A stretch of 32,814 nucleotides of DNA from Haloarcula japonica DSM 6131 (lineage in GTDB: Archaea > Halobacteriota > Halobacteria > Halobacteriales > Haloarculaceae): NCBI RefSeq assembly GCF_000336635.1, contig NZ_AOLY01000009.1, positions 208,778-241,591 on the forward strand. The letters run 5' to 3'. Below the pieces are notes generated by a model, which was given only the letters and a program-made list of their open reading frames with translations, did not search any database and was not told the DNA's origin. Made by a program: the position numbers and the translations under genes. Below are positions 2,083 through 32,814 of the stretch, in pieces (within the stretch, counting starts at the first letter, position 1; every line of letters starts with the position of its first letter).

Positions 2083-3705
2083 TCAGTCATCGCTCACTGC
2101 GGGCGGACGGTCGCCGTCGCGGCCACGGATACGGTCTACCGCTGAGACGTATTCATTGTCGTCTTCGGTGAGGGCGGCCCAGGCCGCGAGGCCGCGTTCC
2201 TCGCGGGTCCCGGGCACGGTGTTGTCGAGAATGAAAGCGACAATGCCACCGACGACCATCCCGGTACCGCCCATGACGAACAGCGTGGTCGCGACCACAT
2301 CGGTCCCGAGGACGCTCCCGAGCACCGGCACAGCCGCCAGCCCCTGCTGGAGGGCCGTCGCACCGCCGACGTCCATCCCTTGTCCGACCTGACTCATATA
2401 CTCGGGGACTGCGAGGCCGGCAAACAGCGCGAAGCCGACGATGAAGACGTTTCGGTTGGCATCGAGGTCGACGTACTTGAGCTGTGAGAGCCCGACAGCG
2501 GCGATCTGTCCGAACATGACGATGTAGAGCCCACCGATGATGGGCGACGGGATGGTCGCGAACAGTTGGCCCGCCGGGCCGAAGTAGCCGACCAGAATCA
2601 TCACGACGGCACCGATCTGGACGACGTAGCGGGAGGCGACGCCGGTAATAGCGATTGCACCGACGTTCTCGGTGTAGGAGGTACAGCCGTTGCCGGTGCC
2701 CATGATACCGGCGAACACGTTCCCGACACCCTCCATCCCGATACCGTCATTGATTCGGCTGCTGTTCGGTGCGCCGCGACCGGCGATACGGGCAACGGAG
2801 TGATAGTCACCGAAACTCTCGACAACGGAAGCGAGCATCCCGGCGAACATCCCGACGATGAACCCCGGCGTGAACTGCGGGAGCCCCCACTGGAACGGGT
2901 AGATCGGTTGGACCAGCGGGACGCTCGTGACAGATCCGAGCGAGACGTAGCTGACCGAGCCCGCGGCGAAGACGCCGGTGACCGAGAGGATAGCTGCAAC
3001 GGTCCACGCAAACAGAATCCCCAGAAGCACAGGAAAGAGCTTGAACGCGCGGTGCCGTCGGTCGAGATACTGCGAACACGCGATAATCGAGAGCATCGTC
3101 AGCCCGAGCAGCCACCAGTTCTGGCCGGTCCCGGGAGCGCCGGAGTTCGGGTTTGCAATCTGTGGGACGTTGAACAGCGACAGTCCGATGAGCGCGATGA
3201 CCGGCGCGATGACGACCGGACCGACGTACCGCTTCAACTTTCCCATGAGGCCGCTGTAGCCGATAACCACCTCGACGATACCGGCGACGATGACGGCCCC
3301 CTGTAGTTCGACGAGCATTGTCTGCCAGTTCGCACCCTGCTGGGCCAGTACGCCGATGATGGCTAGGCCGGGTGCAAGCATTGAGAACGTTCCGCCCTGA
3401 ACGATCGGGTATCTGTTCCCGAGCGTCGTTTGGGCGAGCGTCGCGATGCCCGAGACGACGAAGAACGTCCCGATGAGGCGGCCGACCTGGTCCGGCGCAG
3501 CCTCAAACATCCCCATCGCGCCCGCGAGTCCGAGCGGGATCGCGACGGACGCGCCGATCATCGTCAGGTAGTGCTGGACGCCGAGCAGTATTGCTTGCTT
3601 TCGCGGCGGCTTGTCATCGATGCCGTACTCCACGAAGCCGGCGGTTTCCGGTTCCTCCGGTGTGGTTGCGCTCTGGCCGTCATCGGGTGGTGTCGCGTCA
3701 GTCAT
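2083..3705 (-). CDS. NCS2-family xanthine/uracil permease
   Basis: A 540-aa polytopic membrane transporter of the nucleobase/ascorbate (NCS2) family, which takes up uracil, xanthine or other purine bases with a proton or sodium ion. Many hydrophobic segments are consistent with the 14-helix fold. The NAT signature appears as ENVGAIAITG (acidic residue, N, any, G, four residues, T-G). The start is taken at 3705 (MTDATPPDDG), because the open frame upstream to 3996 is serine-rich shadow sequence opposite the HEAT-repeat gene. It leads the unit permease / small membrane protein / purE, so a purine base is a reasonable substrate guess, but the sequence does not fix specificity. Confidence 0.9.
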   Translation of the reverse strand: MTDATPPDDGQSATTPEEPETAGFVEYGIDDKPPRKQAILLGVQHYLTMIGASVAIPLGLAGAMGMFEAAPDQVGRLIGTFFVVSGIATLAQTTLGNRYPIVQGGTFSMLAPGLAIIGVLAQQGANWQTMLVELQGAVIVAGIVEVVIGYSGLMGKLKRYVGPVVIAPVIALIGLSLFNVPQIANPNSGAPGTGQNWWLLGLTMLSIIACSQYLDRRHRAFKLFPVLLGILFAWTVAAILSVTGVFAAGSVSYVSLGSVTSVPLVQPIYPFQWGLPQFTPGFIVGMFAGMLASVVESFGDYHSVARIAGRGAPNSSRINDGIGMEGVGNVFAGIMGTGNGCTSYTENVGAIAITGVASRYVVQIGAVVMILVGYFGPAGQLFATIPSPIIGGLYIVMFGQIAAVGLSQLKYVDLDANRNVFIVGFALFAGLAVPEYMSQVGQGMDVGGATALQQGLAAVPVLGSVLGTDVVATTLFVMGGTGMVVGGIVAFILDNTVPGTREERGLAAWAALTEDDNEYVSAVDRIRGRDGDRPPAVSDD

Positions 3706-19499: not shown

Positions 19500-21266
19500 A
19501 TGGGTAGTACTGGGTGGGGACTCGGAAATCGTGGACAAAGTGCTCCGCTCGGGTTAGCGCTGGTTTTTGCGGTGATGATTATATCGACGACAGCGGTCGT
19601 TGCACTGGGTGCTGACGCAATCACGAGTACCCAAACGCAACTCGACGTGGAACGAACTGAGAAATCGCTGACGGAACTCAATTCCAAAACCGCGCTCGTG
19701 GCGCTGGGACAGACGGACGTGCAGCAAGTCTCCCTGCCCGCAAGCAGTTCGAGCACCTATCGCATTAACGAGGATGCCGGGTGGATGAACGTCTCCTATC
19801 AGAATACAACGTCCGGGAACCGGACGACTGTGTTCAACGAATCGATGGGAGAGGTAGCGTATCACGGCAGTGACGAGACGCGACTCGCGTATCAGGGGGG
19901 CGGTGTCTGGCGGTCCACCAGCGACGGAACGTCAGTGATGGTGTCTCCACCCGAGTTCCACTACCGGGACGCGACGCTAACACTCCCCCTCGTGACAGTG
20001 AGTGGATCCGGAGCAATCAGAGACGGCGCGTCGATCTCTCACAACCGGACGAAATCGTACTTTCCGAACAGCACGCGCAACGAGAACTTCACGAACCCGC
20101 TGGAAGAGAAGCGCGTCAATATCACTGTCCGGAGTGAGTACTATCGAGCATGGGGCCGCTACTTCGAGGAACGGACGGACGGAGAGGTGACTTTCCACGA
20201 CAGTTCCAACATGGTGTCTATTGTTCTGAAGGTGCCAGCGGGCCCCCGCAAAGTCCGGAACGCCGTCGCGGCCACGTCCGGTTCGGGGTCGATTAAGATG
20301 TCCGGGAACGGTGCCTTCACTGACAGCTATTCCTCCGGCGACGGAGACGGATACACCGTAACCGAGGCGGGTAACGGAGGAAACCTCTCTACTGCGGGCG
20401 ATGTCATCATCACCGGCGGCGCGACGTTGAGCGGGAACATCACGTCGGGCGGGCGTGTTGAATTCAGCAGCAATTCCATGACCTACACTGGAAAGAAGGT
20501 GGAATGGGCGGATACGTTCGAGGACTCCAAGGGCAAATGTAACCCGTCGCCACCGGCCTGTTCCGACAAACAGATCGATTCGTTCGACGGACCACAGAAC
20601 ATCAATTCGCACGTGACCACGACCGTCGACGGATTGCAGTCCTCGAACGACAACGCCGGGACCATCGCGGACGACGGCGTCATTGACGGAACCGAAGGGA
20701 CAACGACGTTGTCCGCAGGCCGGTACCACGTCAACAAGATCGATCTGAGCAACGATGTCGAACTGGATACGACTGGCGGCGACGTCATCATCGGTGTCGA
20801 AGATTACGTCGACATCGATGCCCACACCATCGAAGTGTCCGGTCCGAACGAAGTCAAAATATACGTCCGCGGTGCCAACGCTGTTTCGAAAGGTGGGAGC
20901 GACTACCATTTCTTCTCGGAGGACGGCGACATACTGACTACCGGCGGCGTTAGCGAAAACTCGTCACAGGTGTGGATATACGGGCAGGACCACATGCAGG
21001 CCAGAGTCGAGAAAGGGTCAAGCGACGCAAAGGTGACCGGTGTCATCTACGCACCTGGCGGTGACGCGGGGTCGAGTCGGTTCGAGATACGACAGAGTGA
21101 TTTCTACGGCGGCGTGGTCACGAGCGAAGTCGAACTCGAGCAACAGGGGAGCGTCCATTTCGACCAGACGCTCCAGCAGCGTCGGACGATCCCCAAAGAC
21201 ACGAGCGTGGTTGCGATCACCTACCTCCACATCTCGACGAACGACGTCAATATTACGTCCAACTGA
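19500..21266 (+). CDS. Large pilin-like surface protein with beta-rich passenger, copy 1
   Basis: A 588-aa haloarchaeal protein of unknown function. The N-terminus (NRGQSAPLGLALVFAVMIIS) is a short polar leader ending in R-G/Q followed by one hydrophobic helix, as in archaeal prepilins. TELNSKTALVALGQTDVQQVSL follows. Residues 140-255 hold a domain shared with the next gene (SPPEFHYRDATLTLPL, EYYRAWGRYFEERTDG). The C-terminal half is glycine/serine-rich and beta-like (GDVIITGGATLSGNITSGG, GVIYAPGGDAGSS), recalling polymer-forming or beta-helix proteins. Two cysteines (KCNPSPPAC) and about 12 N-x-S/T sequons are visible. It probably belongs to the haloarchaeal DUF7289/DUF7305-type group; that label is from memory. 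A TATA box supports the start. Confidence 0.85.
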   Translation: MGSTGWGLGNRGQSAPLGLALVFAVMIISTTAVVALGADAITSTQTQLDVERTEKSLTELNSKTALVALGQTDVQQVSLPASSSSTYRINEDAGWMNVSYQNTTSGNRTTVFNESMGEVAYHGSDETRLAYQGGGVWRSTSDGTSVMVSPPEFHYRDATLTLPLVTVSGSGAIRDGASISHNRTKSYFPNSTRNENFTNPLEEKRVNITVRSEYYRAWGRYFEERTDGEVTFHDSSNMVSIVLKVPAGPRKVRNAVAATSGSGSIKMSGNGAFTDSYSSGDGDGYTVTEAGNGGNLSTAGDVIITGGATLSGNITSGGRVEFSSNSMTYTGKKVEWADTFEDSKGKCNPSPPACSDKQIDSFDGPQNINSHVTTTVDGLQSSNDNAGTIADDGVIDGTEGTTTLSAGRYHVNKIDLSNDVELDTTGGDVIIGVEDYVDIDAHTIEVSGPNEVKIYVRGANAVSKGGSDYHFFSEDGDILTTGGVSENSSQVWIYGQDHMQARVEKGSSDAKVTGVIYAPGGDAGSSRFEIRQSDFYGGVVTSEVELEQQGSVHFDQTLQQRRTIPKDTSVVAITYLHISTNDVNITSN

Positions 21267-21383
21267 TAGCCGATACACTTACTTCACCACTATCAGAAGT
21301 AATAGCACCTCACATCGGTCGGTATTTGCTGTGGCCGGCATAAAGAGCCACCAGTGGCGACAATTCAGAATTTGGCCAGCAAT

Positions 21384-21391
21384 CTTATCAA
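21384..21391 (+). promoter_or_regulatory. TATA box of second large pilin-like gene
   Basis: CTTATCAA lies 23-30 bases before the ATG at 21414, within the 147-base gap after copy 1, so the tandem paralog has its own leaderless promoter. Confidence 0.5.
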
Positions 21392-21413
21392 CCGTGATAA
21401 CTACTGTCGGATA

Positions 21414-23138
21414 ATGCACTTTCCCTGGGGCCAGAAACGCGCGCAATCAGCCCCGCTCGGGTTGCTACTGGTCCTCAGTCTCGTCATCGTCGGTTCCGGT
21501 GTGGTTGTCAGCCTGGGAGCGACGGCGCTGGTCGATACTGAGGCTGGGCTCGATGTCTCGCGGGCGGAGACAGGGATGACCCAGTTGGACTCTCAGGCGG
21601 CGCTGGTGGCGCTTGGGAACGCCGACAGCCAGCGGGTGTCGCTCGTCGGGACAGACCAATCCACGTACCGAATCGACGACACTGCTGGCCGGATGACAGT
21701 CAATATCACCAACCACTCGGCTTCGCCCCCAACCACCGTCACGCTGATGGACAAGCACCTCGGCGCGGTTGTCTACGAAAACGGGAATCAGGAAGTCGCC
21801 TATCAGGGCGGCGGGGTATGGCGGCGCTCCGACAGCGGCAGTGTCATGGTTTCACCGCCGGAGTTCTACTACCGCGACGCGACGCTGACGCTCCCGCTCA
21901 TCACCGTCCGCGGTGACCACTCCCTTGGCTCACGGGCGAGCGTTACCAAGGACAGCACGACACAGGTGTATCCCGACCAGGCGGCCGGGAACGTCAACCC
22001 GCTAGATACGGGCACGGTCAACATCACTGTCGAAAGCGACTACTACCGATCCTGGGGGCGCTACTTCGAAGAGCGGACTGACGGCGACGCGTACTACGAC
22101 CACGAAAACGACAGCGTAACCACGACGCTGGTCGTGCCGACGGGGCCGCGGGAAGTGACGAGCGCTGTTGCGGCCACATCCGCGGGCGGACAGATTACGC
22201 TCTCCGGTAGTGGCACCGACCCCGCCCGAACGGACAGCTACAACTCGTCTGTCGGCGATTACTCGACGTCACGGGGGTCGTTCGGAACGATCACCACAGC
22301 CGGTGACGTGTACGTGAAAGGGAACAGCGAGGTGGACGGCACTGTTCGGTCCGGTAGCCGGGTCGAGGTCAAAGGCAGTGGCGTCGTCACCCGTGACGTG
22401 GAATACTCCACCACGAAGCACATCAAGGGCACTGTCAACGGTGATATCAGACAGATTTCGGGTGTCGAGGGAGCCGGCGCTATCGACGGCCTGGTGAACC
22501 GGCGAGTCGCCAACGCAAGTGACACCAATGACAACGGCGCGACCGGCAGCATTTCGGGCGACCAGCTTACCAGCGGTGACCAGACGCTGGACGCTGGCAC
22601 GTACTATCTGGAAGACCTGACACTGAGCGGCGAGACGCTGACGATTAACACGGGTGGTGACGACGTAACCATCGCCGTCCGGGACTATGTCTACATCGAG
22701 AACAACGGGCGGATCAAAATCAACGGTGGCGGAAAAGTCCGCCTCTACGTCAAAGGCGACGCCATGTCTGCCAGCGGTCACCACTTCCACATCTATCGTA
22801 CCGGGGACATCGACGTCGATACCGCACAGAACTCGACGCAGTTCTGGGTGTACGGCAAGTCGGACTTCGATGCCGTGATCGAGGGGGACACCGATACTCC
22901 GCAGTTCGAGGGCGTGATTTACGCACCCGCCGGCGGCGTCGGTGCCAGCAGCGTCTCACTCAAGAAGGCGGAGCTGTACGGCGGCCTCGTCGCCGGGTCA
23001 GTCACGGTGGATAACGGCGGGCTGGTCCACTACGACCGGGCGCTCAGAAACAAGCGGGCTGTCCCGAAGAACACGAACATAATCAGGCTGACGTACCTCC
23101 ACGTCTCGGAGAACCGGATCAACGTGACCAGCGGGTAG
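21414..23138 (+). CDS. Large pilin-like surface protein with beta-rich passenger, copy 2
   Basis: A 574-aa tandem paralog of the preceding gene. The N-terminus (KRAQSAPLGLLLVLSLVIVG) has the same leader, R-A/Q junction and hydrophobic helix, followed by TQLDSQAALVALGNADSQRV. Shared blocks include AYQGGGVWRR, SPPEFYYRDATLTLPLITV, YYRSWGRYFEERTDGD and TYLHVSENRINVTSG. The C-terminal half has the repeated strand pattern DVYVKGNSEVDGTVRSGSRV, like a beta-helix or bactofilin-type passenger. The passengers have diverged more than the N-terminal and middle domains. ATG 21414 fits the TATA box; an upstream in-frame start at 21354 is not supported. It ends 8 bases before the convergent five-gene pilin-like operon. 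Confidence 0.85.
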   Translation: MHFPWGQKRAQSAPLGLLLVLSLVIVGSGVVVSLGATALVDTEAGLDVSRAETGMTQLDSQAALVALGNADSQRVSLVGTDQSTYRIDDTAGRMTVNITNHSASPPTTVTLMDKHLGAVVYENGNQEVAYQGGGVWRRSDSGSVMVSPPEFYYRDATLTLPLITVRGDHSLGSRASVTKDSTTQVYPDQAAGNVNPLDTGTVNITVESDYYRSWGRYFEERTDGDAYYDHENDSVTTTLVVPTGPREVTSAVAATSAGGQITLSGSGTDPARTDSYNSSVGDYSTSRGSFGTITTAGDVYVKGNSEVDGTVRSGSRVEVKGSGVVTRDVEYSTTKHIKGTVNGDIRQISGVEGAGAIDGLVNRRVANASDTNDNGATGSISGDQLTSGDQTLDAGTYYLEDLTLSGETLTINTGGDDVTIAVRDYVYIENNGRIKINGGGKVRLYVKGDAMSASGHHFHIYRTGDIDVDTAQNSTQFWVYGKSDFDAVIEGDTDTPQFEGVIYAPAGGVGASSVSLKKAELYGGLVAGSVTVDNGGLVHYDRALRNKRAVPKNTNIIRLTYLHVSENRINVTSG

Positions 23139-23146
23139 TCGACCGG

Positions 23147-23890
23147 CTACTGGTCGATATCGACTGCAAGATCGTGGTAGACGACGTACGTCCGCTGGAT
23201 GCCGCCGGAGGACGAGGTGAAGTTACACCAGCCGTCAGCCCCACAGGCGAACCCTTCCTGCTCGAAGTACGACTGCCAGAGTGCCTCACGCTGTGGGGTC
23301 GAGTCGACACTGACGTTGACGTGTTCGATGTTGCCACCGGTATCAGCGAACGAGACGTTGCTGTTCCGGTGGTTTGTCCGGACGAGAACCGTCGACCCGC
23401 CCAGGCTCTGCTGGTCGCTGGCGGTCGTGCCGACCACGGTGATGAGTACGCGGTCATCTGAGACGAGTATCGGCGGCGTTCGCTTTTGCACCCCACCGTC
23501 CCGGTTCGTCCGATACACTGCTCCAGCCTCGTAGACGAGCTCTCGCTCCTGATTGCCGGCATAGATGATCGGTCGTATCTCCCAGGTCCCGACGTCCTTC
23601 GGGGCGGTCCCGTCGTGGACTTGCACCGATATCGTCGTGTTTTCGCCCGTTCTGAGCGATGCCTCGCCGAGGCTGACCTCCGTGGCACGGCTCGGTGCGC
23701 CCTGCTTGTAGAGGTCCACGATGTTGTCCGAGAGCACGTCGAATGCCCGTTCAGCGTTCTCCATCTGCTCTGCGTCCCGAGCGTTCTGTAGCGCACCTAG
23801 GCCGCTCACTGAGACGAGTATGATCGATGCCACGATGAGGCTGAACACCAGGGCAAAGCTCAGTACTTCACTTACGGCGCGATCAGCCAT
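23147..23890 (-). CDS. Pilin-like protein, fifth gene of the minor-pilin operon
   Basis: A 247-aa protein with a pilin-type N-terminus: MADRAVSEVLSFALVFSLIV, a short leader ending in arginine followed by AVSEVL and a hydrophobic helix, very close to typical haloarchaeal type IV pilins (RAVSPVIG). The rest is beta-rich and extracellular-looking (TEVSLGEASLRTGENTTISV, ISV/VVG strands) with a cysteine pair in FACGADGWCNF, probably a disulfide. It is the last gene of the minus-strand operon; its ATG overlaps the upstream gene by 8 bases. Its stop lies 8 bases from the stop of the convergent large paralog. Likely a minor pilin; function is inferred. Confidence 0.83.
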   Translation of the reverse strand: MADRAVSEVLSFALVFSLIVASIILVSVSGLGALQNARDAEQMENAERAFDVLSDNIVDLYKQGAPSRATEVSLGEASLRTGENTTISVQVHDGTAPKDVGTWEIRPIIYAGNQERELVYEAGAVYRTNRDGGVQKRTPPILVSDDRVLITVVGTTASDQQSLGGSTVLVRTNHRNSNVSFADTGGNIEHVNVSVDSTPQREALWQSYFEQEGFACGADGWCNFTSSSGGIQRTYVVYHDLAVDIDQ

Positions 23891-24317
23891 CTTGGACCTC
23901 CAGTTGGTCGTCGTAGAACACGGTTATCACGCCGCCGTCAGCGGTGGAGTCCCCCAGGTCTGTCCGGGTTTTGAGTGAAACAGTCACCGACACCTCCGGC
24001 GATGTCGATTCGAGCGTGAGTTCATCGGCGGCGGCGTCAATCGAGACCCGGTAGCCGGTTCCACTCACCCGCGCCGGGAACGTGTGATTCAGCCGCGCAG
24101 TCGGGTCGTTGTCAGCAGCGACCACCAGCCGGTCGATACGGGCGATGTCGGCAGCGACCTGCTGTCCGATGACCTCGAGTTCATCCCTGATGACCTGTTC
24201 CTGCCGATTCTCGACGAAGTTGCCGCCGGCAATGAGGAGGCCAGACACCAGAATCGAGGCGATGGCCAGACTCAGCGTGTAGCTCAGCGTCGTCGAGACG
24301 GCGCGGTTACGACGCAT
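23883..24317 (-). CDS. Pilin-like protein, fourth gene of the operon
   Basis: A 144-aa protein. MRRNRAVSTTLSYTLSLAIA has a basic leader and a hydrophobic helix starting AVSTTL, a prepilin-like arrangement. A short heptad-rich segment (ENRQEQVIRDELEVIGQQVA) leads into a small beta domain (GTGYRVSIDAAADELTLEST, VSVTVSLKTRTDL). Size and layout resemble a minor pseudopilin. The start at 24317 is chosen because the frame upstream to 24554 is shadow of the neighbouring gene. It overlaps its upstream neighbour by 11 bases and its downstream neighbour by 8. Confidence 0.82.
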   Translation of the reverse strand: MRRNRAVSTTLSYTLSLAIASILVSGLLIAGGNFVENRQEQVIRDELEVIGQQVAADIARIDRLVVAADNDPTARLNHTFPARVSGTGYRVSIDAAADELTLESTSPEVSVTVSLKTRTDLGDSTADGGVITVFYDDQLEVQDG

Positions 24318-25287
24318 CTGGCTCACCCGGGGCCACCCGTATCTTTGCCTCGTACCGTAAATTAGAGGTGTCGTAGCGGTAGCGGACAGTCGCGTTATAG
24401 ATCGCGATAGTGCTGAACGGCGATTTGGGCGCTGTATCGAGCGGGTTTGCTGGCGTGCTATCGCGGACGACCATTGAGTAGTTCCCCTTGATCTGGTCGC
24501 CCCGCTTGTAGGTGATGTTGTACTCGTCGCCGACGCCGTGAGCGAACCGCCCATCGAAGTCCCCGCGTTGGAGTGCGAGACACGGCTTGCCCTGGACCGT
24601 CCCGCCGGTCACGTCGATATGGGCATATGGCTCCTCAATAGAGACGCCACACTCCTGCGTACCCGCTGGCGTGTCGACTGTCACGTTGACTGTCCCGCTA
24701 GGTCCGACACTGCCCCAGATACGCATCGTCCATTTCGAGTTGCTGCCAGTGTCGTTGGCTGTGACGACGAACTTGTTCCCCGAACTGGGGAGCTCTGTTG
24801 CGTTGATGACGAACCGTCTGGTCGCGTTCGTTCCATCACTTGGGCGCTTGATCCGCTCTCCGACCATCCAATCGGTGCTTGGTGTCGCTTCGCTGGAGTT
24901 GAACACCGACGTATCGTTCTGGACGATTCGCGTGCCGTAGGTCGGCGAGCCGGTGAGTGTGACGTTTACCAGTGTCCCGCTCGTGACCCGCTGGCGCTCC
25001 GTCTGTGTACTGACGGTCTGAATGCTCTCACGCGTACCGGTTTTGAGTGTTGTTTGGTTCGAGTGGTTGTACCTGTTGGCTGCGGTGATTCCCTGTCCGA
25101 CATTCGACTCTACCATCGCCCGCATCTCCAGTGCGTCGTTGCTCCCGGCAACCTCGCCCCGGCTCGCGAGGTTCTGAGTGTAAATCGCGGAGTTGACGAC
25201 CAGCGCAAGGCCGATGAACGTCACTGCAAGCGCTAACGCGGCAATGAGGATTATCTGTCCGCCTTCGTCGTCGTTCAGATGCGCCAC
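24307..25287 (-). CDS. Pilin/PilX-like surface protein rich in glycosylation sites, third gene
   Basis: A 326-aa protein. The N-terminus MAHLNDDEGGQIILIAALAL has an acidic leader, GGQ, then one hydrophobic helix, resembling GspK/PilX- or TadE-type N-termini. A helical segment (GEVAGSNDALEMRAMVESNV) is followed by a large beta-rich ectodomain with two cysteines (QECGVS, KPCLAL). I count 12 N-x-S/T sequons, so heavy N-glycosylation is likely. By analogy with type II secretion minor pseudopilins, the largest member with a GGQ start would be the tip subunit; that is inference. It overlaps the upstream gene by 13 bases. Confidence 0.83.
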   Translation of the reverse strand: MAHLNDDEGGQIILIAALALAVTFIGLALVVNSAIYTQNLASRGEVAGSNDALEMRAMVESNVGQGITAANRYNHSNQTTLKTGTRESIQTVSTQTERQRVTSGTLVNVTLTGSPTYGTRIVQNDTSVFNSSEATPSTDWMVGERIKRPSDGTNATRRFVINATELPSSGNKFVVTANDTGSNSKWTMRIWGSVGPSGTVNVTVDTPAGTQECGVSIEEPYAHIDVTGGTVQGKPCLALQRGDFDGRFAHGVGDEYNITYKRGDQIKGNYSMVVRDSTPANPLDTAPKSPFSTIAIYNATVRYRYDTSNLRYEAKIRVAPGEPDAS

Positions 25288-25862
25288 GCGACCACCTCCA
25301 CGCTGACCGTATTGTAGACGTTCTTTCCGGTGTCCGAAACCGTATAATCGGTCGCTGGGTCACCGAGCCGCGTGCTGTTGCGCGTCCCGTCTGCATCACG
25401 TAGGTGATCGTCGTCCATGAGTGTGATTGTGTGGCTTGCACGCACCGCGTTGTCGCTCGGCTCCCCGCTGTAGACGTAGCGGGTCGTGACGGTCTTTTCC
25501 TGCGTGTTCTGGAACCTGAGATAGACGTTGTACGCGATTCCCCGCTGGTCGAACGCGCGTTCTAACAACTCTCCGAACCGATTGTCCGGCGGCCCGTTCG
25601 TGTAGTACTCCCGACCACCGGCAGTGTTGTGGAACTGCGCCGTGCTGTTGTCCCAGTAGAGCACAGCCGGTTTCAGTGCGTCCTCTGCCGCCGCCGAGGT
25701 GAGGACCCCGTGACCGATTGCCTGCTGCTGGTTCTCGATGTGCTGACTCGATGTGCTCGCGGACAGCGGCGTCACCGCTGTCATCTGCAGCGCGAACACG
25801 AGGCTTGCCAGTAACAGCATTCCACTGACGATGGCTTCAAGCGTGTGTGCTTGCGCACGCAT
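25275..25862 (-). CDS. Pilin-like protein, second gene of the operon
   Basis: A 195-aa protein. MRAQAHTLEAIVSGMLLLAS has a very short leader and a helix with a glutamate at the fifth residue after the alanine (QAHTLE), matching the E5 position that type IV pilins use in assembly. The ectodomain has YWDNSTAQFHNTAGGREYYT and an Arg/Asp-rich C-terminal part (DDDHLRDADGTRNSTR). It starts 1 base after the stop of the first gene and overlaps the third by 13 bases. Likely a minor pilin; substrate and function unknown. Confidence 0.83.
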   Translation of the reverse strand: MRAQAHTLEAIVSGMLLLASLVFALQMTAVTPLSASTSSQHIENQQQAIGHGVLTSAAAEDALKPAVLYWDNSTAQFHNTAGGREYYTNGPPDNRFGELLERAFDQRGIAYNVYLRFQNTQEKTVTTRYVYSGEPSDNAVRASHTITLMDDDHLRDADGTRNSTRLGDPATDYTVSDTGKNVYNTVSVEVVAWRI

Positions 25863-25863
25863 A

Positions 25864-26409
25864 CTACCACATCACCACGCGTACTGTGACATCCTGCCCG
25901 TTCAGCGAGACCACTCGCAACGCAGTGACCGACGCGTCGTTGTTTGTCGGGGGGTTCCCGCCGGTCGTGAGTATCGTCCCACAGCCAGTTCCGGCTTCAA
26001 CGAGTTCCTCCCTTCCTCCATCCCAACAGAGCGTTTCATCTGAGGTTGCTGTTGCCGTCGCGTTCCCCCGGATTGTGACGTTCACGTTCTCCAGAGCCGG
26101 GTCGAGCCCGACCCGTTCCTCCGGACTCCCGCCGGAGTCGTAGCCACACCCTGACGGTGGTGCGTTCCCAGCGAAGAACTCCCGCGTACAGTGTTCGTCC
26201 AGGACATATGGCTGCTGTGGCGACCCAAGCATCCCCATTGTGAGTCCATCGGCGACTCTGTCGGTCGTGACTGTCTCCTCCTGAACCCCTGCAGAAAACG
26301 GCGACAACAGACCCGGAATGAACAGGAAGATGAATATCAGAACGCTCAGAAAGAGACTCATACCGATTGCGAAATCCAGCGTCGTCTGCCCACGGCGGCG
26401 CTCCTCCAT
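25864..26409 (-). CDS. Pilin-like protein, first gene of the operon
   Basis: A 181-aa protein if it starts at 26409 (MEERRRGQTT), or 201 aa from 26469 (MNRRRNEIQ). ERRRGQTTLDFAIGMSLFLS has a basic leader, a G|QTTLD junction with an acidic residue at position 5, and a hydrophobic helix, all typical of class III (prepilin peptidase) signals. The ectodomain has four cysteines (EHC, SGCGYD, TLCWDG, TGCGTI), enough for two disulfides. The TATA-like GTTATAAC at 26516-26524 would give a leader of about 25 bases for the longer form, so the start is not settled. The shorter form is given because it matches pilin leader length. Confidence 0.82.
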   Translation of the reverse strand: MEERRRGQTTLDFAIGMSLFLSVLIFIFLFIPGLLSPFSAGVQEETVTTDRVADGLTMGMLGSPQQPYVLDEHCTREFFAGNAPPSGCGYDSGGSPEERVGLDPALENVNVTIRGNATATATSDETLCWDGGREELVEAGTGCGTILTTGGNPPTNNDASVTALRVVSLNGQDVTVRVVMW

Positions 26410-26515
26410 CCGGGGTAACCGGCTGACAAACCAGCTGGTAGACTGTATCTCGTTTCTCCTACGGTTCATAAGCCTGATTCACTAAACTGAGATTACTGTA
26501 GGGATGGTATCAGGC

Positions 26516-26679: not shown

Positions 26680-26751
26680 GGGCTCGTAGATCAGGGGTAG
26701 ATCACTCCCTTGGCATGGGAGAGGCCCCGGGTTCAAATCCCGGCGAGTCCA
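26680..26751 (+). tRNA. tRNA-Ala (anticodon GGC)
   Basis: The 72 bases fold as a complete cloverleaf. The acceptor stem is GGGCTCG with CGAGTCC, including the G3:U70 wobble that identifies alanine tRNAs. The D stem is GATC/GATC. The anticodon stem is CTCCC/GGGAG with loop TTGGCAT (anticodon GGC at 26712-26714). The T arm is CCGGG-TTCAAAT-CCCGG, and the discriminator is A. There is no intron and no encoded CCA. It marks the left edge of the accessory region; tRNA 3' ends are common integration sites. Confidence 0.95.
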
Positions 26752-26769
26752 TCCTAATTTTACTGTCGT

Positions 26770-26815
26770 AAACAGGGAATTTATATCACGGCGAGAGCGC
26801 CGTTTCTCCCTGTTT
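26770..26815. repeat. Nested inverted repeat upstream of the rep module
   Basis: The outer arms AAACAGGGA (26770-26778) and TCCCTGTTT (26807-26815) are perfect 9-base complements. Inside lies a perfect 6-base stem, ACGGCG (26788-26793) and CGCCGT (26798-26803), with a 4-base AGAG loop. A TATA-like TTTATATC sits at 26780-26787 between outer and inner left arms. Its place just after the tRNA and upstream of a rolling-circle Rep makes it a candidate replication origin, operator or promoter-hairpin. Confidence 0.6.
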
Positions 26816-26945
26816 TCGGCACAATCGGGGTTCGAGGACTGTCCCCACAGAAAGAGAGTTCATCGGAAATCCGGATGCACCCCTCGCAGTCACGCGATTA
26901 TTCCGAGGGAGTCTGTTTCTCTAACAGTTCCCGGAGGTGGTCGGC

Positions 26946-27089
26946 GTGTCGCCTGACCACGACCTCGCACAGCCCACCGACTGGCCGTTCGCTCGTGATG
27001 AGTTCGTCCGTGCGTCTCGCCTCCTGGAGGCGACCGACGACGATGTTCGGCGAGCTATCGAGCGCGTCGAGGACGGTGGTCGGCAATGA
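26946..27089 (+). CDS. Small 47-residue protein heading the rep module
   Basis: This short reading frame starts with GTG, 6 bases after a strong Shine-Dalgarno sequence (GGAGGTG, 26933-26939), and ends in an ATGA overlap with the next gene. The product begins MSPDHDLAQPTDWPFARDEF and ends in an acidic/basic helix (ATDDDVRRAIERVEDGG). The good ribosome site, the coupled overlap and halophilic composition argue that it is real. I do not recognise the family. It may be a small DNA-binding or copy-control protein, but that is only a guess from position. Confidence 0.6.
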   Translation: MSPDHDLAQPTDWPFARDEFVRASRLLEATDDDVRRAIERVEDGGRQ

Positions 27090-27451
27090 CGGACTGGTCG
27101 AACTACGTCCAGTACCGCTGTCCACTCTGTCAGGACAACTGCATCAACAAGGCCGACCATCCAGCGGCGGAGGCCAATCGCTGTAAGCAGTGCTACAGTG
27201 TTCCCTCGGCAGACACCACAAGCGAGGGCGCGGGAGAGCTGGCACGCCCGGAAGCGCAACGCAGTGAGCATCCCGGACCGGAGGGCGAGCGCCAATCGCA
27301 CTCCGCACCAGCTCGACCAACTGGAAGCGCCCCCACGCGGGGCGACCCGGAAGCCCGAGCGTTCCCCCCGAACCCGGAGGGTGAGGGGAATCCCAACAGC
27401 GACACACCGGGTAGCCGACGAGCGGACGCCCGTTCTGATGGTCCCAAATGA
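27086..27451 (+). CDS. Small zinc-finger protein of the rep module
   Basis: A 121-aa protein. The N-terminal 40 residues form a zinc finger: C12-x2-C15, C19, H25 and C33-x2-C36 (YRCPLCQDNC, NRCKQCYSV). The remaining 80 residues are rich in Pro, Gly, Arg, Ser and Glu, and are probably disordered. It overlaps the preceding small gene and the following rep gene, each by an ATGA, so all three are translationally coupled. Small zinc-finger proteins beside Rep genes are common in haloarchaeal plasmids and viruses. The role is probably nucleic-acid binding. Confidence 0.68.
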   Translation: MTDWSNYVQYRCPLCQDNCINKADHPAAEANRCKQCYSVPSADTTSEGAGELARPEAQRSEHPGPEGERQSHSAPARPTGSAPTRGDPEARAFPPNPEGEGNPNSDTPGSRRADARSDGPK

Positions 27452-29412
27452 GCGTTGTCGAGCCGCCGGGACACCTGGGCGGTCTCGACCTCGCCGATAG
27501 ATGTAACACTCCCGTCTTAGCAGACCTTCTCGAAGAGCGCGACCTTCTCGGTCACGGCCAATTGCTCGACGGAACTCTCACAGAACGCGACGAAGATCGC
27601 GTACGCGTAGCGAAGTTCATCGCGGCGCATCCGGAGGGTACACCGCTGTCACACGTTGTTTCGTACGCCGTCAAAGGTGTCGCGCCCGAGGCCTGCGAGC
27701 GCGTCGAAGGCTCCGACCCCGACTACCAGTTTGCATACCGCTTTGTCGACGATCTTGTAGCCCCTGAAAACCCCTACGTGCGGAAATCCGAGTCTGCAGG
27801 GGTTCTGATGGTGACCCCGACCCTCCGCCTTCTTGACTTGATTACAGAATGCATTACTCAAACAGCCAATGAAGAGGGCATCAAGTACGACAGAGAGTTT
27901 CTGCGGAACTACCTCGCTAAGGTCGATTCTGTAGATGATGACCTCCGGGCGCTGCTGAAGGACGGTTTTACATCCTACCTCAATCGCATCAAAGACTACA
28001 AGCTCCTGTTCGATGTCCACTTCGTCGACCGTCGTGGTGGTGAGTCCACCAAGCGGATGACAAAGGACTACAAGACTCGTTTCAACGACCAGGGCCGTGT
28101 TTCCAAACAGTTCGCCCGATTCAACGATGCGCTCGAATACGGCTATGAGAATGCTGACAACGCCGTGCTTGTGACGTTGACGACCGACCCGAAGCGCCAA
28201 GACTCGCTGCTCGACGGAATCGACTCTATCAACGAGAACTTCAATCGGCTCCTGTCGTACTTCGATTCTGACCCCTCGATGAAAGACAATACCCGACGTT
28301 CTGCCGTTCCCGGCTGGCGGCACGATCTCGACAGTAAGGTTACCGGGCGACCGCGTGATCGACCGGACTACATCAAGGCTCTAGAGTTCACGGAGAAAGG
28401 CTATCCGCACCTGCATGTCCTGTTCTTCGACGTTCCGACACGCGATAAGGACGGCCTTCCGTGGCTCTGTGATAAACCGGAGGTAGCTGCGAAGTGGGCC
28501 GACTACGGCCAAGGTGAGATCGTCGACGTGTACCCGTTGACCTACCGGGACAACCTCGACGACTTGGAACCAGAGTTCCAGAGTAACGAGGGATTCGTCG
28601 ACTGGTATAGATTTGGCGACCACGATCACGGCGAGCAGTGGGTTCGAGAACGAACACGGTCGCATGAGCTGATTGAGTTCGGTGACGACGGCCACGAGAA
28701 GGAATCAACAGCCGGCGCGTATCTTGGGAAGTACCTGAGTTCAACGTTCGGCTCGCTGCTCGACGCCACGGAATCTTTCGATCAAGACGATGATGAGAGG
28801 GAGGCCTATGCGGACAAAACAGCTACTTGGAAGCTCGCGCTGTATTGGGCGACGAACCGACGGTTCTGGTCTTGCTCGGAATAGATTACGAAGGGAATCA
28901 ACCCGAGCGACCACCTGCAAGACCCGGATGTCCGTGAAGCCGTCCGCTGGTGCTCGCTTGACTCAGTACAAGCCGTGAGCGAGAGCGAGATACGCGACGA
29001 CCTTGCGCGTCGGCAGTGAGACGACCGCGACGATCTCGACGCTGCCGTAGAGCGAGCGATTTCCGATGTTGAACAGCCGCAGGTACGCTCAACGCTGCCG
29101 GAAGAGGCCTCATTCAGGTGTATTGTGGATTATATTGGTGCGTCTGCGTACTGGGACCTCCCCAGTAGCGAAGTATCTGGCAGTTCGTGTAATCTCGAAA
29201 CCACTGAAGGCTGTGTTACTGATGCCGATGGTTTGACCCCGATTGACCGTGAGAACGATCCACCGATAGCTGATGTGTGGTCGTAGCGACGGCCAGTACA
29301 GGATAGGTTTGTTAAAGAAGGTACTATCTCATACGAAGAAATCAACCAAATCTTGAAGGCTCGAATAAACGAAGTTCATCCCGAAGCATCACCGGTGGTG
29401 ATCGCCTCGTAA
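27448..29412 (+). pseudogene. HUH-type rolling-circle replication initiator (Rep), interrupted by three in-frame stops
   Basis: The intact part is 478 aa (27448-28884). HUH motifs are visible: motif 1 VLVTLTTDP (about residues 239-247), motif 2 YPHLHVLFFD (His321, His323) and motif 3 AGAYLGKYL (nicking Tyr425). This is the Rep type of haloarchaeal plasmids and pleomorphic viruses, which nicks an origin to start rolling-circle replication. After TAG at 28882 the same frame continues with protein-like sequence (INPSDHLQDPDVREAVRWCS, SEIRDDLARR) through TGA 29017 and TAG 29284 to TAA at 29410-29412, giving about 654 codons without a frameshift. The catalytic domain itself is complete, so a truncated protein could still be made. 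I call it a decaying Rep of an integrated element. Confidence 0.78.
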
Positions 29413-29526
29413 ATATCTATATATCGACATTCGGTCTGCTGCTAAAATCATGCACTGGAAACAGGTGGGAGTCTATCGAAAAGGGCTAAGAAAGGGTCAA
29501 ACATCAAAAACTGACTTGATGATTAA

Positions 29527-29535
29527 TACTATATA
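29527..29535 (+). promoter_or_regulatory. TATA box of the PHD-like zinc-finger gene
   Basis: TACTATATA lies 24-32 bases before the ATG at 29559, a leaderless arrangement. The rest of 29413-29526, after the Rep frame ends, is AT-rich with no convincing gene. Confidence 0.55.
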
Positions 29536-29558
29536 CTACTGTCATTATTGAATATTCC

Positions 29559-29789
29559 ATGGGACTCTTTGGTTCCTCTGAGTGCATGTACTGTGAAAAG
29601 AGTGTAGAGAATACGAAATATGGCACCTGTGAGAACTGTGAGGAACATTGGCACCTGCCCTGTGCTAAGCAAAATGCGGATTTCCGCCAGGCCCACGATG
29701 ATGGTATAATCAAAGACGAGCATCATATTCAGTTTAACTGTCCAAATTGTGGCCACATAATGAGAAAAACAGAGAGTTCATACTTTTAG
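29559..29789 (+). CDS. PHD/RING-like C4HC3 zinc-finger protein
   Basis: A 76-aa protein that is almost entirely one zinc-binding domain. The ligands are C9-x2-C12-x11-C24-x2-C27-x4-H32-x2-C35-x25-C61-x2-C64, the exact C4HC3 order and spacing range of PHD fingers. CENCEEHWHLPC recalls the PHD core where an aromatic residue precedes the His. A cross-brace with two zincs is expected. PHD and RING folds bind histone tails or ubiquitin machinery in eukaryotes; nothing here shows such a partner. The coding sequence is AT-rich compared with the chromosome. It stands 79 bases before the reductase gene, on the same strand. Confidence 0.8.
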   Translation: MGLFGSSECMYCEKSVENTKYGTCENCEEHWHLPCAKQNADFRQAHDDGIIKDEHHIQFNCPNCGHIMRKTESSYF

Positions 29790-29868
29790 ATATGGAACTT
29801 ATAGTCACTGTGAAATTATTACGATCAAAGATTCAAAGTGAGAATTAATAAATTGGAAATTACAATCT

Positions 29869-31074
29869 ATGACAAAGATGGATTCAGAAAAACAGGATGT
29901 GGCCATCATCGGTGGTTCAGTGTCGGGGTTGGGTGCCGCAGAAAAGTTAGTTGACTTAGAGAAAACAAACGAGGTACGTGTCTTTGAACGCCAGGAGTAC
30001 GATGAGAAACGAGTTGATTGTGGTGAGGCCATCAATGACGCGACACTCGTGCCATTGAAGAAAAATCCCTCAAATGGATTCCTAAATAATGTTACTGGAT
30101 TCCAACTACGTGTATACACCGGAACTGACCGGAGTCACGATGAGGAACCACTAGGAGTCTCGAACCTCAGGTGTGAAGCAGGTTATATTTGCGACCGTGA
30201 TACAGTAGAGCAACAGTGGGCACGGCGACTCTCCGATAGAGGAGTCCTTTTCGAGACTGGTAAATCAGTCACGGCAGAGGAATACCATGATATAATTGAA
30301 AAATACGATTACGTAGTGGATGCGACAGGTCAACCTTCCCTCACACATAAGGTCAAAGATGAAGTCCCGAACTATACAGGGGACATGGTAGCCCTGAACG
30401 CCACAGTGGAAGGGGACTTCTCTGACTATACAAACTATCCACGAATCTTCTTCGAGGGGTATGTCGGGTACTCCTGGTCGTTCCCAAAATCGGAGACACA
30501 TGCGAACGTTGGAATTGGCTGGGCGGGTGACAAACGCCCAAACGATTACATGAGTGCGTTGGAGGGAGCAGCAGAGCGCAATGGCTTCCCGGTGCCGGAT
30601 CAGGAGGATGTGAATATTTATACAATCCCACGCGGCCCCAGTCTTGAACCTCATTCTGTTCATATTCCCGAGGACAACATCTTCTTGGTGGGCGATGCGG
30701 CTGGGATAGCAAATCGATACCAGGGCGAAGGCATTTGCCAGGGAATAAGGTCAGCCAATCTCCTCGCTGAGTTGATTGCGGAGGGTAGGGAATCGGATTA
30801 TCCTGAGGAGTTATTTGATAATATGAAATCAGAATATCGCCTCGCTCGGTTGATGCGAGGTGCTTGGGTTGAACATGAAGACCCTCAACTACTCGCCAGT
30901 GTTGCTGAAGCTTTGGAAGGGTTGACTATTGATGATATCACCCGTCAACCACAGCGTGTTATTGGACGGGTTATTCAGCATCCAGTTGTTGCTACACAAC
31001 TCGTTGCAGATCGGCAGATGATCAAACGACTATTTAAAGCCTATACAAATAACTGGGAATATAATTCTGCATAA
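29869..31074 (+). CDS. Geranylgeranyl-reductase-family FAD oxidoreductase
   Basis: A 401-aa flavoprotein. The N-terminal dinucleotide-binding motif is IIGGSVSGLGAAEKL (about 14-28). FERQEYDEKRVDCGEAI follows, like the Cys/Gly region of this family. The family signature YSWSFPKSETHANVGIGW begins near residue 201. The FAD-ribityl motif NIFLVGDAAGIANRYQGEGI is at about 269-288. Relatives reduce double bonds of geranylgeranyl chains in archaeal lipids or quinones. Codon use and base composition are AT-rich, unlike the core genome, so this is a transferred copy rather than the housekeeping enzyme. Downstream, a membrane protein starts 5-17 bases after the stop, so the two are probably co-transcribed. 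Confidence 0.87.
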   Translation: MTKMDSEKQDVAIIGGSVSGLGAAEKLVDLEKTNEVRVFERQEYDEKRVDCGEAINDATLVPLKKNPSNGFLNNVTGFQLRVYTGTDRSHDEEPLGVSNLRCEAGYICDRDTVEQQWARRLSDRGVLFETGKSVTAEEYHDIIEKYDYVVDATGQPSLTHKVKDEVPNYTGDMVALNATVEGDFSDYTNYPRIFFEGYVGYSWSFPKSETHANVGIGWAGDKRPNDYMSALEGAAERNGFPVPDQEDVNIYTIPRGPSLEPHSVHIPEDNIFLVGDAAGIANRYQGEGICQGIRSANLLAELIAEGRESDYPEELFDNMKSEYRLARLMRGAWVEHEDPQLLASVAEALEGLTIDDITRQPQRVIGRVIQHPVVATQLVADRQMIKRLFKAYTNNWEYNSA

Positions 31075-31091
31075 TTAGGGTGATTGGTCAC

Positions 31092-32138
31092 ATGCACGAA
31101 AAATTTGATTATAACTCTCATTGGGTGAGTGAACAGATTGAGAACGGATTGTTTGGAATTTCTAACCCCGTTGTGGTTAGTATATTGAAGTTCTCTATGC
31201 CATGGAATATATTATCGATATGTTACACGGTTCTGTTTTGGAACTCAATTACACTCTCTTTCCTCTATGCTTCTGTATTAGGGTTAATCTGGGTTAATAT
31301 TGCACCATTCCTAATTTGGTATTACGATGAGCGAGTGCTACCTGCGTTTTTTAACCATCTTTCTGAACTCATTCCTGAAGAACAGGAACGCAATCGATTA
31401 TCAAAAAAATTTAATAACTTTTTTTCCAAGCATCGGTTGTCAGTTTCGCTATTCTTTACGGTTTTACTCACGAGTATCGTATATGTGAGTGAACCAGCTC
31501 TCAGAGCGCAGGGTATGACAGGAACTGGTTCAATATTTATCTGGACCACATATGCATACGCTACCTACATTGGGGCGGTTTTGAGCCATGGTTATGTCGG
31601 CCCAGTAACAACTATTCTACTCATTAGGGAAATTACGGAGTACGAATTAGAGATAGATCCCCTGCATCCTGATAATTTAGGTGGACTTAGTACGGTAGGA
31701 TACGTTTCGATTCGTACTACGCTTCTATTCTCAACTGCCTCATTGTTTTTACCCCTTCTGTTTTATTTTTCATCAGCAGGTGGTGTCTCGGAAGTCATAT
31801 TTGCTGGTGCAGGAATATTGGTTCTAACCATATTTATCTCATTTATTTATCCGACCGCCATCGTCAATCGGAGAGCACAAGAATATCGTGATGCTGTACT
31901 TGAGGAACTTCGTGAAGAATACCATCAAATAGAACAAGATACAAATGATCCAGATCAAAATGAACTGTCTGAACTAAATAAGCGCCTAGAACTTGAAAGA
32001 GTTCAACGAAATTATGACAATTACAATTCTGTGAGCCTATATCCACTCCAAGTGAATATATTGTTTCAACTAATTGGTTCTGTGATACTCCCACTTTTAT
32101 TTATGTTTATAGAATTTTATTTGCCAAATCTAATCTGA
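31092..32138 (+). CDS. Multi-pass membrane protein, function unknown
   Basis: A 348-aa protein with six or seven membrane helices, at about residues 28-50, 53-77, 117-135, 151-180, 208-226, 232-258 and 320-345. Between helices 4 and 5 is EIDPLHPDNLGGLSTVGY, whose HPDxxGGL looks like a conserved functional motif. A charged, probably coiled-coil segment (RDAVLEELREEYHQIEQD onward) lies before the last helix. I do not recognise a named family. It follows the reductase by 17 bases (5 if the in-frame GTG at 31080 is used), so the pair may act together at the membrane. The sequence is strongly AT-rich. Confidence 0.82.
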   Translation: MHEKFDYNSHWVSEQIENGLFGISNPVVVSILKFSMPWNILSICYTVLFWNSITLSFLYASVLGLIWVNIAPFLIWYYDERVLPAFFNHLSELIPEEQERNRLSKKFNNFFSKHRLSVSLFFTVLLTSIVYVSEPALRAQGMTGTGSIFIWTTYAYATYIGAVLSHGYVGPVTTILLIREITEYELEIDPLHPDNLGGLSTVGYVSIRTTLLFSTASLFLPLLFYFSSAGGVSEVIFAGAGILVLTIFISFIYPTAIVNRRAQEYRDAVLEELREEYHQIEQDTNDPDQNELSELNKRLELERVQRNYDNYNSVSLYPLQVNILFQLIGSVILPLLFMFIEFYLPNLI

Positions 32139-32577
32139 GCTCCCATTATTAAATTTAAAATCAATACGCATATCACTCAATTCGCTGCCGACAGCGTAGC
32201 GGGGACCGGACCCAATCCATTCCGCTCCACAATTGGCAAGACGGTCCCTCTGGATTAGAACTATCTTCATTCATAATGTATTCTATTGGATCTCTTGGAA
32301 TCAGTCTCCCAGATATAGCCTCTTATTTTCCCAACTGGAGCGGAAACTCCGTGCTGTGTCGGTTCTGTCTTGTCATCTAATTCGGGATTCCAATCTTACC
32401 ATGGGGTCGCCAGCGTCTCACATACAAAACATAGTCCGAAATGTCAGACATTGTCACTGAGTGAATGGTGTTTAGTAGTTGACCACCTATAATCCAAGTT
32501 CACCAACCTATGTCTCTGTTTTGTCGAAATAGTGCGAAACAGTACACTTATGTGTAATAGTTGGTATGTAATTGGAT
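32139..32577. other. Gene-poor AT-rich spacer at right end of the cassette
   Basis: This 439-base stretch has no convincing gene. On the minus strand short protein-like segments appear in different frames (SDISDYVLYVRRWRPHGK at about 32451-32395, then HGVSAPVGKIRGYIWETDS around 32350-32290), which may be remnants of a degraded gene. Apart from the TATA box of the following pilin-like gene near 32550, I see no RNA gene, array or insertion sequence. Confidence 0.4.
32547..32554 (+). promoter_or_regulatory. TATA box of the terminal pilin-like gene
   Basis: CTTATGTG lies 24-31 bases before the ATG at 32578, consistent with a leaderless transcript. Confidence 0.5.
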
Positions 32578-32784
32578 ATGTTCGAGTGGGGCAGCCGGGG
32601 GGCTGGAGACCGGGGTGTATCGCACGTTCTGGGTGTGGTGTTGTTGGCGAGTACAGTCATTATTGGTGCTGTACTGATTGTTCAGGTGGGGCAGCAGACG
32701 ATCGGAGATGTCAACGACGACGCGAACGTCGAACTCGCTGAGGAGGTTCTGCTGTCGGTTGACCAGAGCTTCCAGCGGTCAGAC
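32578..32784 (+). CDS. Pilin-like protein, 5' part only
   Basis: Sixty-nine codons are visible before the sequence runs into adapter. The product starts MFEWGSRGAGDRGVSHVLGV, a basic leader ending at R-G followed by VSHVLGVVLLAST and a long hydrophobic helix, the same layout as the pilin-like proteins at 19500 and 21414. QQTIGDVNDDANVELAEEVL then matches their conserved segment after the helix. It is GC-rich again, so the AT-rich cassette ends before it. Full length and passenger are unknown. Confidence 0.75.
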
Positions 32785-32814
32785 CTGTCTCTTATACACA
32801 TCTCTGAGCGGGCT
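32785..32814. other. Sequencing adapter (transposase mosaic end plus 454-type adapter)
   Basis: CTGTCTCTTATACACATCT at 32785-32803 is exactly the 19-base Tn5/Nextera mosaic end. The next bases, CTGAGCGGGCT, equal the reverse complement of the 454 adapter B end (AGCCCGCTCAG). This is library sequence left on a contig end, not genome. The true contig end is 32784. Confidence 0.95.

Follow-up and report, generated by a model that had tools for sequence, protein, structure and literature searches.

The stretch of DNA analysed here (the window; 32,814 nucleotides, C9:208778-241591) comes from a Haloarcula genome whose nearest named relatives are Haloarcula argentinensis and H. sebkhae (98-99% for the DUF7288 protein). 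Its seven ORFs, which lie where the preliminary description had placed them, all match curated, functionally unnamed Pfam families above the cut-off (Table 1). Five minus-strand genes follow each other from 26469 to 23147 in the order DUF7287, DUF7288, DUF7261, DUF7266, and DUF7289 and are tightly packed, with a 1-nt gap and then overlaps of about 13, 11, and 8 nt. This run is convergent with a tandem of two large pilin fusions, T1 and T2, and the stop codons of T2 and DUF7289 are 8 nt apart. The five-gene run of the window is referred to as cassette A, and the second five-gene copy in the genome as cassette B. Judged from the sequence, DUF7266 most likely extends from 24317 to 23883 (144 aa, MRRNRAVSTT...), and translation of T2 probably begins near 21414, at an ATG in frame some 20 codons downstream of the ORF start; the predicted mature T2 protein begins at the Q encoded at position 21444.

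Table 1. Features of the window and the evidence on which their assignment is based
Feature	Position	Strand	Basis
T1, large pilin fusion, DUF7289 N-terminus and DUF7305 passenger	19500..21266	+	Pfam
T1 passenger region, apparently exchangeable, approximate limits (about residues 176-568)	20025..21203	+	Step in identity and in synonymous difference (pS)
T2, large pilin fusion, DUF7289 N-terminus and DUF7305 C-terminus	21354..23138	+	Pfam, AlphaFold
T2 passenger, predicted beta-solenoid (mature residues 235-540), fold like that of ice-binding proteins and ComZ	22146..23063	+	VIA-align
DUF7289, lone minor pilin without passenger, fifth gene of cassette A	23147..23890	-	Pfam, 242 bits
DUF7266, small pilin, fourth gene	23883..24317	-	Pfam; start inferred from sequence
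DUF7261, third gene, three N-terminal helices and predicted jelly-roll head	24307..25287	-	Pfam; model pLDDT 86; fold match borderline
DUF7288, pilin-like protein, second gene	25275..25862	-	Pfam
DUF7287, pilin-like protein, first gene, class III motif RRG-QTTLDF at about residue 27	25864..26469	-	Pfam, sequence
tRNA-Ala(GGC), conserved synteny anchor between giant pilin and cassette A	26680..26751	+	
Rep-like protein in the ~5.7-kb insert	27448-28884		Weak REP_ORF2-G2P/Rep_1 matches
Geranylgeranyl-reductase-like FAD protein in the ~5.7-kb insert	29869-31074		
Unknown protein in the ~5.7-kb insert	31080-32138		
Giant DUF7289 pilin, start (eighth member, 1244 aa, extends beyond the window)	32572..32814	+	

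The N-termini of the seven proteins had been described as pilin-like, and this was borne out: a strict class III (FlaFind-like) motif precedes the hydrophobic stretch in six of the seven, and a strongly hydrophobic segment is present in all. The DUF7261 motif is EGG-QI in the window strain, degenerate at position −2, and DRG-QI or ERG-QI in most congeners; across close Haloarcula species this position varies between R, G, and Q. A prepilin peptidase is encoded in the genome, on another contig. The resemblance of the five genes to a minor-pilin set, which had also been proposed, is supported, and no family matches to the type II secretion pseudopilins GspH/I/J/K were found among the seven proteins. 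DUF7266, the smallest of the set, has a PilA-like N-terminus and is a candidate for the major pilin.

The third gene product, DUF7261, had been called PilX-like. This label found no support, since the Pfam search reported only the DUF7261 family for this protein and no match to the PilX family model. Its AlphaFold model (pLDDT 86) predicts a helical stalk, with three N-terminal helices, and a beta-sandwich head, the best matches of which are jelly-roll and lectin folds at borderline Z values of 7-9 that a common arrangement can also give. A lectin-like head is therefore not claimed.

The large proteins share with lone DUF7289 their N-terminal part, which matches all but the last ~30 columns of that protein (E 6e-32). 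Across families, almost every large pilin examined has a tail strand of the form YLHxSxNxVxV behind the passenger. The AlphaFold models in this study are single chains; that of T2 (mean pLDDT 84, low in the N-terminal helix part; 26-sequence alignment) begins with a helix of 52 residues, which is followed by a beta-rich domain, a beta-solenoid (residues ~235-540), and a last strand at 551-563. Using VIA-align, the solenoid was matched to the ice-binding protein FfIBP (4nu2; Z 18.1, ~195 residues) and to the solenoid of ComZ from Thermus (6qvi; Z 16.7 over 243 residues), and next after ComZ came the tapirin adhesins with Z values of 8-9. In a profile match, the tail of the large pilins lands on the last strand of lone DUF7289, but this placement by itself is not significant (P 0.16), and a ComZ-like topology, with the solenoid inserted before the last pilin strand, is thus suggested rather than demonstrated. 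When the PDB sequences were searched with a profile, ComZ was not among the matches up to an E value of 10, so that it was not recovered as a sequence homologue of the large pilins; because the likeness is structural, we say that T2 may work like ComZ and not that it belongs to the same family. A tip or display role of the large proteins, which the preliminary description had put forward, gains support from this predicted ComZ-like passenger of T2. The passengers of T1 and T2 are both acidic (pI 4.6-4.9).

A segment of ~5.7 kb (about 26752-32500) between the 3' end of tRNA-Ala and the giant pilin gene is absent from three related loci (L054, L056, and L058), where the two are separated by about 0.5 kb or less; it holds the three genes listed in Table 1 and looks like an element integrated at tRNA-Ala. 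At positions 32785-32814 of the window, continuing at 3563-3616 of locus L050, two N-joined Nextera/Tn5 mosaic ends (CTGTCTCTTATACACATCT...) lie inside the giant pilin gene and are translated as LSLIHISER. These sequencing-adapter ends are an assembly artefact, and the giant pilin sequence is therefore unreliable at this place.

Purifying selection acts on all seven genes. In comparisons with seven close congeners, dN/dS values are 0.13-0.37 for T1 and 0.03-0.28 for the other six genes, DUF7288 being the most conserved of the set (0.03-0.05). T1 is distinguished by an abrupt change within the gene. Its first ~165 residues are 90-97% identical to the window in eleven other Haloarcula genomes, whereas the passengers of these genomes fall into two allele classes, one of eight genomes with 71-72% identity to the window passenger and one of three genomes with 34%. 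At this boundary the synonymous difference also steps, from ~0.3-0.45 to 0.6-0.9, which argues for replacement of the passenger by recombination and not for selection on amino acids alone; between two species of one T1 class it is 0.2-0.45 throughout, and T2 has no such step. These comparisons indicate that the T1 passenger has been swapped among Haloarcula species on a constant pilin base, and they suggest a pressure on the contacts of the tip, be it with surfaces, other cells, or viruses.

No ATPase is encoded in the window, and all six PF00437 proteins of the genome are encoded elsewhere, in agreement with the earlier observation that the set has no local motor. Cassette B lies ~150 kb from cassette A (C9:385239-393048) and directly follows the genes for an ATPase of 830 aa and a TadC protein of 678 aa. 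Other engines are present in the genome, including a PilB3-like ATPase/TadC pair on contig C37, and a further ATPase and TadC locus (L045; C7:220511-224452 of G000), which adjoins more distant DUF7289- and DUF7266-like pilins, represents another type IV pilus type in the same genome. DUF7288 is present in 163 of 195 Halobacteriales genomes. Outside the family of the window, the cassette was found directly behind a PilB4-type ATPase and TadC in all 49 loci sampled, in the order DUF7287-7288-7261-7266-7289, with DUF7261 undetected in a few, and in most engine-linked loci of other families a large DUF7289 protein converges on it. Conservation of the seven-gene order across haloarchaea had been put forward as a check; the five-gene order recurs throughout Halobacteriales. 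Measured against the PilB4-type (clade 2) pilin set, cassette A has the class III signals and the homologous families in order, but it has no ATPase and TadC in the operon, and we therefore regard the locus as a variant with the pilin set separated from the engine and not as a complete system. The earlier proposal that this is a motorless set borrowing an engine can be kept in its second half; the set is not inherently motorless, since the cassette is linked to a motor in the other families sampled, and a novel system without a motor is ruled out on the same ground.

Engine-less cassettes of type A were found only in the window's own family, in 18 genomes, and each of these 18 also has an engine-linked cassette. 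In two related genera (g4 and g6; L104, L105, and L064), a single locus contains the engine, cassette B, a giant pilin, tRNA-Ala, cassette A, and large pilins. In Haloarcula, the block of giant pilin, tRNA-Ala, cassette A, T2, and T1 has been kept (L054, L056), and the engine and cassette B are elsewhere; in L058 a single large pilin of 1100 aa takes the place of T1 and T2. The giant pilin beside cassette A in Haloarcula is homologous to that beside cassette B in g4 and g6 (27-33% identity over most of its length), and the same tRNA-Ala separates the giant pilin from cassette A in both. One relative, G059 (L121), retains only fragments of cassette A behind cassette B. In G003, the PilB4-type engine has no adjoining pilins and the sole cassette lies ~1.4 Mb away in record coordinates, which makes this genome a natural case of pilins in trans to a PilB4-type engine. 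Divergent cassettes in related genera (L117, L118, L120, and L146) adjoin DUF7289 proteins of 1874-2267 aa, and in some of them the engine is inverted relative to the cassette.

Trees were calculated for the cassettes (concatenated DUF7287, DUF7288, and DUF7289) and for the engines (ATPase and TadC). The engine-less cassettes form a single clade (SH-aLRT 99) beside an engine-linked cassette of family f5, and Haloarcula cassette B belongs to a different clade, together with cassettes of other families. Forcing the A and B cassettes of the family into one clade was rejected (p-AU 3e-13), a value to be read with caution because the B branches are long; with the same caution, a simple duplication within the family is ruled out. 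In the engine tree, which follows the families, a branch with a support of 63 sets off the whole family of the window, and each of the two halves of this family is supported at 100. Unlike the engine tree, the cassette tree does not follow taxonomy, and the same engine lineage adjoins A-type cassettes in some family members and B-type cassettes in others. This association is the main argument that a single engine lineage has worked with both pilin sets, and hence that one engine may be able to serve both.

We therefore consider it probable that the locus represents an additional pilin set of the PilB4-type pilus that has no engine beside it, is provided with two tip-display pilins, and is served by PilB4-PilC4 in trans; a single motor would then probably build filaments of two kinds that differ in their tips. 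This explanation draws on the observed gene content, gene order, selection, and passenger swapping, on the position and phylogeny of the engine and the cassettes, and on the predicted fold of the passenger. We infer that assembly would proceed as follows. All seven proteins would have their class III signal peptides cut off by PibD, and the five small pilins would make up the initiating complex and the filament. T1, T2, or both would be loaded first and thereby reach the filament tip, where they would carry a beta-solenoid set into the pilin domain ahead of its last strand, as in Thermus ComZ. Assembly would be driven in trans by the PilB4 ATPase and the TadC/PilC4 platform that are encoded beside cassette B on the same contig, and the exchangeable passenger of T1 would make the tip ligand or an exposed epitope variable. 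As a filament has only one tip, T1 and T2 cannot both occupy it. Precedents have been published for pilins in trans to PilB3 and for engines that serve different pilin sets (PMC4858521); however, the cross-complementation between two Haloferax PilB-C pairs is reportedly limited (PMC6491452), which calls for caution regarding an engine shared by cassettes A and B. More tentatively, Haloarcula may have two kinds of pilus run by one motor with a chosen pilin set, the ComZ-like tip solenoid being an exchangeable recognition module that recombination swaps between species, as with phage-receptor or kin-recognition domains; we regard this as a possibility of rather low probability.

A different engine, for example the PilB3-like pair on contig C37, might instead serve cassette A, or several engines might do so promiscuously. 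Six PF00437 proteins are encoded in the genome, no cassette families were detected beside the PilB3-like locus (L046), and the PilB3 of Haloferax works with pilins encoded in trans (PMC4858521). However, the homologous cassettes adjoin PilB4-type engines in all other families sampled and adjoin the same engine in the sister genera, and no cassette was seen beside the PilB3-like type, so that we consider such an arrangement unlikely. It is likewise doubtful that the products form no long pilus at all but a short, pseudopilus-like or membrane-anchored structure that displays the T1 and T2 solenoids at the surface. The number and sizes of the proteins are like those of minor pseudopilins, the passengers are large, and the set has no clear major pilin; on the other hand, according to Makarova et al. 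(PMC4858521) the PilB4-type set has a PilA-related major pilin of its own, and the small pilin DUF7266 has an N-terminus like that of PilA. That T1 and T2 act as DNA receptors in a competence-type pilus, with a function like that of ComZ, seems improbable: they share the two-domain architecture and the solenoid fold with this DNA-binding protein (PMC6561018), but their passengers are acidic, and the fold is common to ice-binding proteins and adhesins too. Finally, a decaying relic left behind after loss of the engine, which the missing engine nearby and the partial deletion of cassette A in L121 might bring to mind, is hardly credible, because the cassette is intact in the window and in all eight congeners fetched, T1/T2-like matches occur in 31 of 32 Haloarcula genomes (some of them weak and from incomplete genomes), and the dN/dS values given above rule out a pseudogene for Haloarcula.

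Turning to known systems, the favored reading of a second pilin set with a remote engine has its closest counterpart in the PilB4-type pilus of Haloferax volcanii (HVO_1160 locus; Makarova et al. 2016, Fig. 4B), which also has an engine locus with its own pilin set and shares a pilin family that is prone to duplication and variable in length. Our equation of the two is drawn from that paper and from the match of the Haloferax volcanii DUF7288 control. Haloarcula has two copies of the complete pilin set, one of them away from the engine; this is the opposite of the pattern reported as usual, in which the engine is duplicated and the pilins are not (Makarova et al. 2016, PMC4858521). Whether one archaeal engine assembles two pilin sets is a point raised by this 2016 census, and the Haloarcula locus offers a natural, genetically accessible test of it. 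The model also ties DUF7287, DUF7288, DUF7261, DUF7266, DUF7289, and DUF7305 to putative minor pilins and a beta-solenoid tip pilin. We found no literature on DUF7289 and no relevant paper combining DUF3494, pilin, and archaea; the elements are of known kinds, and the limited literature searched contained no description of their combination or of archaeal ComZ-like tip pilins.

For the passenger of T2, the DUF3494 ice-binding proteins (FfIBP 4nu2 and relatives) share the predicted fold (Z ~18, ~195 residues), but the T2 passenger is fused to a pilin domain, is 14-18% identical to them, comes from a halophilic host, and has no match to the Pfam ice-binding family. The bimodular adhesive pilin PilB of Streptococcus sanguinis (PMC8179133) follows the same principle, a modular pilin with a functional domain, in that case with another passenger and in another domain of life. 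A further counterpart of T2 is ComZ of Thermus thermophilus (6qvi), which combines a pilin-like domain with a large FfIBP-like beta-solenoid, is encoded in a minor-pilin gene neighbourhood, and has a proposed position at the tip; it binds DNA and has been proposed to be the DNA receptor there (PMC6561018). The large pilins of Haloarcula differ from ComZ in that they have no detectable sequence similarity to it, an archaeal class III signal, an acidic passenger, and two tandem copies, one of which undergoes apparent allele swapping. If the likeness is confirmed, a solenoid carried by a tip pilin would be in use in both bacteria and archaea.
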